Positions 4,521 to 51,645 of a stretch of DNA of 64,000 nucleotides are shown one piece after another. Every line of letters begins with the position of its first letter. Positions within the stretch are counted from its first letter, which is position 1. The stretch spans positions 1,860,001 to 1,924,000 of the forward strand of contig NZ_CP113361.1 in assembly GCF_026684035.1 (NCBI RefSeq), written 5' to 3'. The DNA is from Methanogenium organophilum (GTDB lineage Archaea > Halobacteriota > Methanomicrobia > Methanomicrobiales > Methanomicrobiaceae). The notes below the pieces were generated by a model. It had not been told where the DNA came from. It did not search any database and saw only the letters and a program-made list of their open reading frames with translations. Position numbers and translations under genes: made by a program.

Positions 4521-5150
4521 CTATTTTGTACCAAAGAGACGGTCGCCTGCGTCACCGAGACCGGGAACGATATAACCCAGTTCGTTTAGGTGATTATCAA
4601 TCACCGCAGGGATGATATCAACATCAGGGTGTTCCTCTGCTACCCTGCGGATACCCTCTGGGGTTGCGAGAATACAGAGCACTTTGATATCCTTTACTCC
4701 TGCTTCCTTAAGGAGAGTACAGACAGCAGATGTCGTACCTCCTGTCGCAAGCATCGGGTCAAGGATGTAATTGCGCCGCTCCTGCACGTCTTCTGCCAGT
4801 TTTGCATAATATTTCTTCGGCCGAAGAGTGGTTTCGTCCCGATAATATCCGATATAACTGATACGCGCCGTTGGTATTACTGTCAGGAAACCCTCCTGCA
4901 TGCCGATTCCCGCACGGAAGACGGGGACGATGGAGGGGACTTTCTCTTCAACCATCTGGACCTCAATCGGAGTGCCCTGCCAGCCGGTTATAGTGGCGTT
5001 TGTCAGTGGCAGATCCTTTGTGGCCTAATATGCGAGAAATGTGGAGAGTTCTGTTACAATCTCCCGGAAATCCTTGGAGTTCGTTGTCGGGTTCCGGAGC
5101 ATTGTCACCTTGTGACGGATGAGGGGATGAGTAACCGGATAGACTGCCAT
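4521..5150 (-). pseudogene. upp: Uracil phosphoribosyltransferase with an in-frame amber codon
   Basis: The frame from ATG 5150 to the stop at 4521 encodes a full-size (209-codon) uracil phosphoribosyltransferase, which makes UMP from uracil and PRPP. Codon 42 (5027-5025) is TAG, in the conserved segment LAY-stop-ATKDLPL; relatives such as E. coli Upp have glutamate there (TYEATADL), one base from TAG. The rest is intact: the PRPP-binding loop DPMLATGGT lies at 131-139 and the C-terminus GLGDAGDRLFGTK is canonical. An internal ATG at 4955 would yield 144 residues lacking the N-terminal third. The gene follows the truncated uraA by 1 nt. It is either a nonsense mutant or a base-call error. Confidence 0.85.
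5025..5027 (-). other. In-frame TAG codon inside upp
   Basis: Reading from ATG 5150 on the minus strand, codon 42 is TAG where glutamate is expected. A GAG to TAG change explains it. TAG is also used as an ordinary terminator nearby (porD, DUF368 gene), so reassignment to an amino acid is unlikely. Confidence 0.85.
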
Positions 5151-5151
5151 A

Positions 5152-5676
5152 TCAGAAGTCCACCTCGACAACCGGTTCATCTCCCTTCTTTGGTTCAGGG
5201 ATGATGAGGTTTAAGACTACACCGATGATTGCGGCAAGACCGATACCTGCAAGCTGGAAGTCGCCGATGGGAATGAAGAGTCCGCCGATTCCGGAGACCG
5301 GCACCACTGCAAGAATGGCGAGGTTCTTCGGGAGCATGAAGTCTACCTGGTTTTTCACCATCTGTTCAATTCCCAGGCGTACAATCAGGCCGAAGAGGAG
5401 AATCAGCACACCACCCATCACCGGGCCGGGTATGGTGCTGAGGAATGCGCCGATCTTGCCGATGAAGGCAAAGCATATTGCAAAGATTGCACCGAAGGTC
5501 ATCAGGAGTGGGTTGAAGTGGCCGGTCAGTTTGACTGCTCCGGTGACTTCAGAATATGTCGTGTTGGGGGGGCCTCCTGCAAGTGCTGCTACAAAGGTTG
5601 CGACACCGTCTCCCAGAAGAGTGCGGTGAACACCTGGATCTTGGGGATGGGGGGGTATTTTAGGCGATACGCATCT
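5152..5676 (-). pseudogene. uraA: Uracil/xanthine permease (UraA), C-terminal remnant
   Basis: Homology to NCS2-family uracil permeases begins at about 5643 with DPGVHRTLLGDGVAT and runs to the TGA at 5152, about 163 residues with the last membrane segments. Intact UraA has about 420 residues, so the N-terminal 60% is absent. The frame upstream of 5643 is open only to the TAG of the DUF368 gene at 5679-5677, and that neighbour is complete, so there is no room for the missing part. This looks like a deletion that fused the uraA 3' part to the end of the DUF368 gene. It precedes upp, also damaged. Confidence 0.85.
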
Positions 5677-6552
5677 CTATGAATTGACAGAAACGATCAT
5701 CCGTCGTTTTGCATACTCCATGAGTCCGATAAGGACGATTCCTGCTATAGTGAAGAGGACGGCAGATATTCCGAATCCCCCTTCTTTTGTGATGATGCCT
5801 GCAAGCATGCGTGTGGATCCGAGCATGAGCCCGGTGAGAAATGCAAGCATCACCGCGTGATGGGTGCGGAGGAGATACTGCAGTGTCCGGGAGAAGGCTA
5901 AGAGCCCGATAACCCCGCCAGTCATATAGGTGATCAATTCGGGGAGCGCAAGGGTGTGGACCGCATTTAGGAGATACTCATACTGGTTAAAGAGAAGCGT
6001 GATATATGCCCCTGAAATGCCGGGGAGGATCATGGCGCAGAGGGCAATCGCACCGGTAAAAAAAAGCACTGGAAGGGAGTGGCCAAGAGATGCGGGGTTC
6101 AGTCCTGCAATGATATATCCGGTTACAAATCCGCCGATGAGAAATGCGATGATGTCTGCTCCCCGGTGGGTGATCTCTGCAAATATGAGCACAGAGGATG
6201 CGAGGATGATGCCAAAGAAGAGCGCATAGGTCTCAACGGCATATTCGTTCAGGAGAAAGAGGATGAGCTGGGACATGATGAGGGCTGCAACCCCGATTCC
6301 TGCGATGAGAGTGCCCATAAAAAGCGGGTCTACTGCACGCACGCCGTCCCAAAATGCCTTTTTATCTCCCCGGATGAGGTGCTGCAGGGTATGTATGTGG
6401 ATGTTGCCAATGGCATTGATGAGCCGTTCGTAGATGCCGGTGATGAGCGCCATGGTTCCGCCGGAGACGCCGGGGATGATGTCTGAGGCACCCATGACCA
6501 TTCCTTTGAGAAAGATGAGGATACATTCACGGCTGATTCGGTCAGGAGTCAC
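5677..6552 (-). CDS. DUF368 membrane protein, probable polyprenyl-phosphate transporter
   Basis: A 291-residue polytopic membrane protein. The N-terminal GMVMGASDIIPGVSGGTMAL segment is the DUF368 signature, and a second, inverted-repeat-like copy LCAMILPGISGAYI appears in the middle, giving the two half-sites typical of the family. DUF368 proteins in bacteria have been linked to recycling of undecaprenyl phosphate across the membrane; in an archaeon the substrate would be dolichyl phosphate. The divergent epimerase gene fits a glycan-assembly context. Its TAG stop abuts the remnant of uraA. Confidence 0.85.
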   Translation of the reverse strand: MTPDRISRECILIFLKGMVMGASDIIPGVSGGTMALITGIYERLINAIGNIHIHTLQHLIRGDKKAFWDGVRAVDPLFMGTLIAGIGVAALIMSQLILFLLNEYAVETYALFFGIILASSVLIFAEITHRGADIIAFLIGGFVTGYIIAGLNPASLGHSLPVLFFTGAIALCAMILPGISGAYITLLFNQYEYLLNAVHTLALPELITYMTGGVIGLLAFSRTLQYLLRTHHAVMLAFLTGLMLGSTRMLAGIITKEGGFGISAVLFTIAGIVLIGLMEYAKRRMIVSVNS

Positions 6553-33680: not shown

Positions 33681-34232
33681 TCACTTGATATTTTTGTGAT
33701 AGCGTGAGAGGGTTGCCTGGCGCTGGTTGAGATATTTTGCATCTCCCTTTGAACCGTATGGCTTCTCTGCACGCTCTGTAGTATAAAATACAAGTTGGCC
33801 GATTGGCATTCCTGCATAGAGGCGAACCGGGCGGCGGTTTGCATTTGATATTTCAAGTGTTATGGTCCCGCAAAATCCTGCGTCAATCCATCCACCTGTC
33901 TGGTGCAGGGCAATGCCCAGACGCGCAATGCTGGATTTCCCTTCGATGGTTGCAACAATGTCATCCGGCAGAGTGATGCACTCGTGTGTTTCTGCAAGAA
34001 GAAACATGCCGGGCGGAATATCAATATATTCTGCATGCTTCTCGTCAACATGGGATACAATTGAATCCTGTTCGTACGGGTCGATAACGTCATCAGACTC
34101 TTCATACCACACAAAATGGTCACCCAGTCGGATGTCGATTGAATTGGGCTGAATTAACTTTGGGTCAAACGGGTCGATTTTTATAAAACCCCGCTCAATA
34201 CGGTTTTCTATCTGCCAGTCAACGAGAATCAT
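33681..34232 (-). CDS. dcd: dCTP deaminase
   Basis: A 183-residue nucleotide-metabolism enzyme that converts dCTP to dUTP (possibly on to dUMP in the bifunctional archaeal form, which cannot be told from sequence). The trimeric-dUTPase-like motifs [10 protein letters not shown] and [18 protein letters not shown] are intact, the latter carrying the catalytic glutamate. Start is ATG 34232, 64 nt after the trmJ stop. It belongs to de novo pyrimidine deoxynucleotide supply, which matters here because the salvage genes in the window are damaged. Confidence 0.9.
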
Positions 34233-49997: not shown

Positions 49998-50762
49998 TCA
50001 GAATGACTTTCGGCGTCCGGACGCATCCCGTGCATATGCCCCCAGTTCGCTGTTTTCAAGGATATCGCCGGTAAATACCGGGCCGTCACGGCATACCCTG
50101 AGTCCTGTGGGATCAATACAGCATGAGCCGCAGATTCCTACTCCGCATTTCATGTAGCGATGAAGACTAAACTGCCCTTTCTCCGGGCATCCGGCGTCAA
50201 TGAGGATGGCAAGCACCGCCTTCATCATGACTTCCGGACCGCAGACACAGATAGTGTCGTACATTGCCGGGTCAGCAGTGCGCAACAGATCTGTCACAAA
50301 TCCGTGATGCCCGTATGTGCCGTCATCTGTTGCACACTGGAGATTGGTGCATCGGGAGAGTTCTTCGCGGTAGAGCAGATCTGCTGCTGTGCGTGCTCCG
50401 AGGATGAAGTCATCTGCCGCACCGGATGTGGCAAGCAGGCGCAGAGGTACTGCCCCGACACCACCTCCAACAGCAAGTGTTTTTCCGGTGGGAGAAAATC
50501 CGTTTCCGAGTGGCCCTTTGATACCGATCTCGTCTCCCCGGCTGAGTGTAAAGAGGGTTTCTGTGGCGTCCCCCACCTTCTGCACGGTAATAGCATTCTG
50601 TGCGCAAAATCCCATGGGTATCTCATCGGTGCCGGGCACCCAGACCATGCAGAAATGGCCGGGTTCTGCCGGGAACCGTCTGGAGAAGACAAATGTCCTG
50701 ATGGATGGTGACTCTTCGATAATGTCCGTGATTGTCACCGGGACAGAGGGAATTTCATGCAT
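49998..50762 (-). CDS. pyrK: Dihydroorotate dehydrogenase electron-transfer subunit
   Basis: A 254-residue FAD/[2Fe-2S] protein that passes electrons from PyrD to an acceptor. The N-terminal ferredoxin-reductase-like FAD-binding region covers about 10-100 (with SRGDEIGIKGPLGNGF), and the C-terminus carries the [2Fe-2S] motif MKCGVGICGSCCIDPTGLRVC. Starts at ATG 50762, inside the end of pyrD by 8 nt, so the two subunits are translated together. Its function in an anaerobic methanogen would be reoxidation through NAD or ferredoxin/F420. Confidence 0.88.
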   Translation of the reverse strand: MHEIPSVPVTITDIIEESPSIRTFVFSRRFPAEPGHFCMVWVPGTDEIPMGFCAQNAITVQKVGDATETLFTLSRGDEIGIKGPLGNGFSPTGKTLAVGGGVGAVPLRLLATSGAADDFILGARTAADLLYREELSRCTNLQCATDDGTYGHHGFVTDLLRTADPAMYDTICVCGPEVMMKAVLAILIDAGCPEKGQFSLHRYMKCGVGICGSCCIDPTGLRVCRDGPVFTGDILENSELGAYARDASGRRKSF

Positions 50763-51645
50763 GGGCGCACCCCACAATATTTTCCGGACATTCGCCGCCG
50801 TCCTGCCGATAGAGATTCTCAGAAATCTGTCGGAATATCGCCACATCGTCCACGACTGCACTGCCGATCTCCACTGCCGATGCACCGGCCATCATCATCT
50901 CCACTACATTGTCGGCACTTGATACGCCGCCGCACCCGATGATGGGTATCTCACAGGATTCATACAGTTCCCAGACACACCGGACAGCCACCGGGAAGAT
51001 GGCAGGGCCGGAGAGTCCGCCCATGCCGTTCCCCAGCATCGGACGTCGGAAATGTGTTGATATCCGCATCGCCTTCACTGTGTTCACTGCCACAATGGCG
51101 TCTGCTCCGCCGCGCTCTGCTGCAAGACCTATCTCGGTGATGTCGGTTACATTCGGGGTAAGTTTTACCCATACCGGGAGGCCAGTATGTTTGGCCATCC
51201 GCGTGCACTGTTCAACCATGTCCGGGTCCGCCCCGACTGCCGCACCATATCCTTCTGCATGCGGGCAGGAGAGGTTTAGCTCAAGAGCCTGCACGCGGCC
51301 TGCAAACCAGTCTGCCACTTCCCCGAACTCCTCCGGCGTGCCGCCGAAAATGGATGCGATGACCGGTTTCCCGCGAAGCCCGTCAAGTTCCCCGGTAAAC
51401 TCTTTGGACGGGTTGGGAAGACCCATTGCGTTCATCACAGCGCCGTCCAGAACTGCCACACAGGGGCCGTGATGTCCTTCTTTTGGTTCGGGGCCGATTG
51501 ATTTCGTAACCACACCGCCCGCTCCTGATTGAAGCATCCGTGCAAGGGATGCTCCGGTTGTTCCCAGCACGCCTGCTGCAAGAATGCAGTGGTTCTGCAG
51601 CCTGACGCCGCCCACTGTTACATCGCCCGGAATTAGTGTCACCAT
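50755..51645 (-). CDS. pyrD: Dihydroorotate dehydrogenase catalytic subunit (class 1B)
   Basis: A 296-residue TIM-barrel flavoenzyme that oxidises dihydroorotate to orotate in de novo pyrimidine synthesis. The class 1 motif LELNLSCPHA with the catalytic cysteine and the FMN-binding GCGGVSSADNVVEMMMAGASAVEIGSA segment are intact. It overlaps pyrK by 8 nt, the arrangement of the class 1B heterotetramer. With dcd it shows de novo pyrimidine synthesis is active, in contrast to the damaged salvage genes. Confidence 0.92.
   Translation of the reverse strand: MVTLIPGDVTVGGVRLQNHCILAAGVLGTTGASLARMLQSGAGGVVTKSIGPEPKEGHHGPCVAVLDGAVMNAMGLPNPSKEFTGELDGLRGKPVIASIFGGTPEEFGEVADWFAGRVQALELNLSCPHAEGYGAAVGADPDMVEQCTRMAKHTGLPVWVKLTPNVTDITEIGLAAERGGADAIVAVNTVKAMRISTHFRRPMLGNGMGGLSGPAIFPVAVRCVWELYESCEIPIIGCGGVSSADNVVEMMMAGASAVEIGSAVVDDVAIFRQISENLYRQDGGECPENIVGCAHA

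Follow-up and report, generated by a model that had tools for sequence, protein, structure and literature searches.

Very probable recent decay of the uraA–upp uracil-salvage unit in Methanogenium organophilum

Functional uracil permeases of the NCS2 type have a complete fold of 14 helices and match the profile PF00860 along their entire length. Two conserved glutamates of UraA belong to the substrate site; following the positions in Escherichia coli UraA, we take them to lie in TM8 and TM10. In Methanomicrobiales the permease gene is associated with upp, coding for uracil phosphoribosyltransferase: an intact-looking upp was found in 17 of the 60 relatives searched (in pieces in one of them, G001), and in all 17 it is adjacent to a gene for a UraA-type permease. 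Four congeners (M. cariaci, G001; M. marinum, G002; G005 and G006) carry uraA–upp flanked by the same two genes, DUF368 and PAS; the two named species, together with Methanogenium MAGs, are the named relatives matching the uraA remnant described here. An uninterrupted uraA frame is present in G002, G005 and G006; in the G001 draft the gene falls into three pieces, through frameshifts that look like homopolymer errors of that draft rather than decay. The window that we analysed, 64,000 nucleotides of the M. organophilum genome (one contig of 2.65 Mb), shares with this salvage operon its gene order and the overlapping stop/start TGATATGG that makes a unit of uraA and upp, and the surviving parts are 88–92% identical to the Methanogenium orthologues. 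By contrast, its uraA lacks the leader and codons 1–255, while its upp has a TAG at codon 42. We conclude that this is very probably a recently decayed uracil-salvage unit, the function of which was presumably dispensable.

The locus lies on the minus strand, in the order DUF368 gene (6552–5677), uraA remnant (ending at 5152), upp (5150–4521) and PAS gene (4321–3257). In keeping with the sequence-only reading, what is left of uraA is the C-terminal third, about 163 codons (5152–5642) of a permease that is 418 residues long in G006, the original start being lost. Within 5152–5676, PF00860 is matched at profile positions 264–387 of 389 only (115 bits) and the NCBIfam uracil permease model PRK10720 at positions 259–406 of 429, short of the full length of a functional UraA. 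Orthology of the remnant to UraA is apparent from the order DUF368–uraA–upp–PAS in the four congeners and from 88–91% identity to the C-terminal part of the intact proteins of G006, G002 and G005. Its first residue aligns with K256 of the G006 protein. The first conserved glutamate motif (APAIEHFGD in G006) is deleted and the second (NTTYSEVTG) is kept, these glutamates being, presumably, the counterparts of the E. coli substrate-site residues.

The missing part was removed by a deletion. Alignment with five congeners places the break at about 5636–5645, close to the 5643 initially proposed: homology to the region downstream of DUF368 stops in CATCCCC, and homology to uraA starts from AAGA (AAGATCCAGG, 5642), the junction reading TACCCCCCCATCCCC|AAGATCCAGG around 5649–5633. 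The distance between flanking anchors is 99 bp in the window versus 1005 bp in both G006 and G005, which leaves 906 bp net missing from the window. Compared with these two congeners the deletion spans from about 36 nt past the DUF368 stop to about codon 256 of uraA, taking away leader, start and the first ~255 codons, much as the sequence-only reading had supposed of the promoter and the N-terminal part. The congener alignment revealed no long repeat across the junction. Relocation of the N-terminal half by a rearrangement was rejected, no such piece being found in the whole genome. Along with the entire intergenic leader went an inverted repeat, CATCAT-N6-ATGATG, located ~50 nt before uraA in G002, G005 and G006 (e.g. 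G006:C1:76045-76062), possibly an operator or a leader hairpin. It was rejected as a genome-wide regulator site: beyond the uraA leader there is one further copy in G005 and one in G001, and no regulon is evident. The neighbouring DUF368/PF04018 gene, polyprenyl-phosphate translocase-like (226.7 bits, profile positions 1–227 of 246) and lying upstream of the remnant, is complete, as had been stated, and its start and length are identical in the congeners. The idea that uraA was fused to it had to be dropped, however: DUF368 keeps its own TAG stop (5677–5679), the two genes abut, and there is no protein fusion even though the remnant chances to share the frame.

The second gene, upp (4521–5150), still has 209 codons that match PF14681 over positions 3–206 of 206, with one TAG inside. 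A functional uracil phosphoribosyltransferase needs an uninterrupted frame of ~209 codons; here codon 42 (5025–5027) is TAG, the nonsense codon that had been noticed at the outset. This is a single G>T change, as the codon is GAG in G006, G002 and G005 and GAA in G001; the glutamate is also conserved in G007 and G008. Decoding of this TAG as pyrrolysine was rejected. The best matches to a pyrrolysyl-tRNA synthetase (PylS) in the genome score 31 and 27 bits, the cut-off being 178, and sub-threshold matches of like kind turn up in most control genomes; the TAG is therefore a stop. A replacement elsewhere was likewise rejected: upp is the sole UPRTase-family match in the genome and there is no other UraA-type permease, the other NCS2 genes being an intact one for a 445-residue protein that belongs to another subfamily, and a partial copy of that gene. 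On this gene content, UraA and Upp activities are predicted to be lost. The genome does code for PyrB, PyrC, PyrD, PyrK, PyrE and PyrF homologues. In the window, pyrD (50755–51645) and pyrK (49998–50885) are intact, the pair (49998–51645, minus strand) matching NCBIfam PRK07259 and PRK00054 above cut-off, and so is dcd (33681–34232); these genes are 28–46 kb distant from uraA–upp and do not belong to its operon. UMP should therefore still be made de novo, and the proposal of a dead salvage unit alongside intact pyrD, pyrK and dcd agrees with this inventory.

Substitutions tell how far decay has gone. Of the changes private to the uraA remnant, 9 are non-synonymous and 10 synonymous; in G006, G002 and G005 taken together the figures are 3 and 20 (Fisher p = 0.02). 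The raised non-synonymous share is what would be expected of a pseudogene. Some of the changes in the remnant fall at sites conserved in the genus (IASLG>IVRLG, DLTV>DFML and VVLV>VVPV, with respect to residues common to G006, G002, G005 and G004). In upp, where the missense changes include D>V in EEKDPSIVP and A>T in ILAAPEG, private changes are 9 to 25 versus 16 to 61 in relatives (p = 0.62), with no significant excess of amino acid changes. Overall dN/dS of upp is still low, 0.035–0.087, and its decay is therefore recent on this branch. The lack of a significant excess would mean that upp was lost later, or too recently to show, which hints at an order of loss with uraA going first and upp following.

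Losses of one gene or of both are seen in related genomes too, but at other breakpoints than in the window. In G003 (locus L062, 8077–8539), DUF368 adjoins the PAS gene on one contig, uraA and upp both being cleanly absent; this genome groups with G001, which has the pair intact, with 99% support in the tree, and its loss is therefore independent of that in the window. The place of the window species itself in the genus tree is poorly supported (46%). G003 also has a divergent UPRTase gene (locus L072, contig 144, 978–1541) on a 5.8 kb contig, 23% identical to Upp of G006, possibly a replacement gene or a contamination. G049 has an intact uraA, but of the upp behind it no more than the final ~80 codons are left; G034 has uraA and no upp. 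G029 (locus L071, 4300–5488) has no upp, and its uraA breaks off after ~157 residues and continues midway in the frame of a transporter gene lying downstream, probably through a deletion between the similar stretches ALFIAGI and VIAGI. A transporter of this type, NRAMP-like by eye, is complete beside the intact uraA of G034 (locus L070). Finally, upp is apparently gone in G004; the end of this MAG contig forms a chimera with an internal uraA segment, and we consider this loss as tentative.

All these observations would be explained if the salvage unit was dispensable and was lost step by step under relaxed selection. In the ancestor, DUF368 would have been followed by a separate promoter/leader, then by uraA–upp. 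One deletion of ~0.9 kb between non-repeated sequences cost uraA its leader and ~255 initial codons; upp was cut short after 41 codons by a GAG>TAG point mutation. Import of uracil by the permease and its conversion to UMP by Upp would be gone, the cell relying on de novo UMP synthesis. The sequence-only reading had left the choice between selection, with a toxic analogue as the agent, and relaxed need. Relaxed need would be the simplest cause, because related genomes have repeatedly lost the pair, or had it broken, through lesions that differ from one to another, and nothing favours positive selection for loss over relaxed need. On the side of the toxic analogue, both genes of the pair were hit, and loss of uracil phosphoribosyltransferase does make a methanogen, Methanococcus maripaludis, resistant to 6-azauracil (PMC11267900). 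However, a single lesion in upp would be enough for resistance, the remnant has drifted further, and related genomes lost the pair by several routes and stand at different stages, as expected of a dispensable function. We know of no analogue source in this setting, and consider it very unlikely that the loss was driven by selection through a toxic pyrimidine analogue, in favour of resistant cells. In a broader version, uraA–upp would be under recurrent selection for loss in Methanomicrobiales, e.g. where uracil import is costly or neighbours release a toxic analogue; the several different breaks would then reflect an ecological pressure, not neutral decay. This, too, we consider very unlikely.

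An assembly or sequencing error, hiding a true genome with intact uraA and upp, is unlikely, to the point of being barely credible for the locus as a whole. To be sure, congeners with the pair all have intact frames, bar the probable sequencing frameshifts in the G001 draft, and one misread base might, in principle, be behind the nonsense codon of upp; the deletion is not easily explained in that way. The comparison proposed earlier, a search of relatives for an intact uraA between DUF368 and upp, does find it, yet this does not imply an assembly collapse: the junction lacks a long repeat on which a collapse could occur, and the genome is a single contig. As first reported, the uraA deletion and the GAG>TAG of upp are independent lesions; together with the missense changes, which are independent of both and affect invariant residues of the remnant as a collapse would not, they argue against such a fault. 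Hardly more plausible is continued translation of the remnant as a fusion or a new small membrane protein, whether ribosomes read through the DUF368 TAG or start at an internal ATG at 5502. An open frame in phase with DUF368 extends from 5676 to 5152, and the ATG opens an ORF of 116 residues; against this, the genome has no pyrrolysine system, the gene's own leader and promoter are gone, amino acid replacement is raised, with Arg and Pro at conserved positions, and the shared phase has a one in three probability of arising by chance.

The event is ordinary gene decay of a known kind, well resolved; its interest lies mainly in the repeated losses, which show a salvage pathway in the course of disappearing: close relatives have it intact, half lost or excised altogether. 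The strain is predicted to be naturally resistant to uracil analogues, and upp should be usable in it as a counterselection marker without prior knockout. Automatic annotation calls for caution, as neither a uracil permease nor a UPRTase should be called in this genome. The genome also has another truncated permease frame, 197 codons long: the 3′ part of the 445-residue NCS2 gene, which by eye resembles purine permeases, is copied 1.6 kb away as a 586-bp, 97% identical stretch (locus L004, 8832–9417 and 10476–11061; genome 426.8–429.1 kb).
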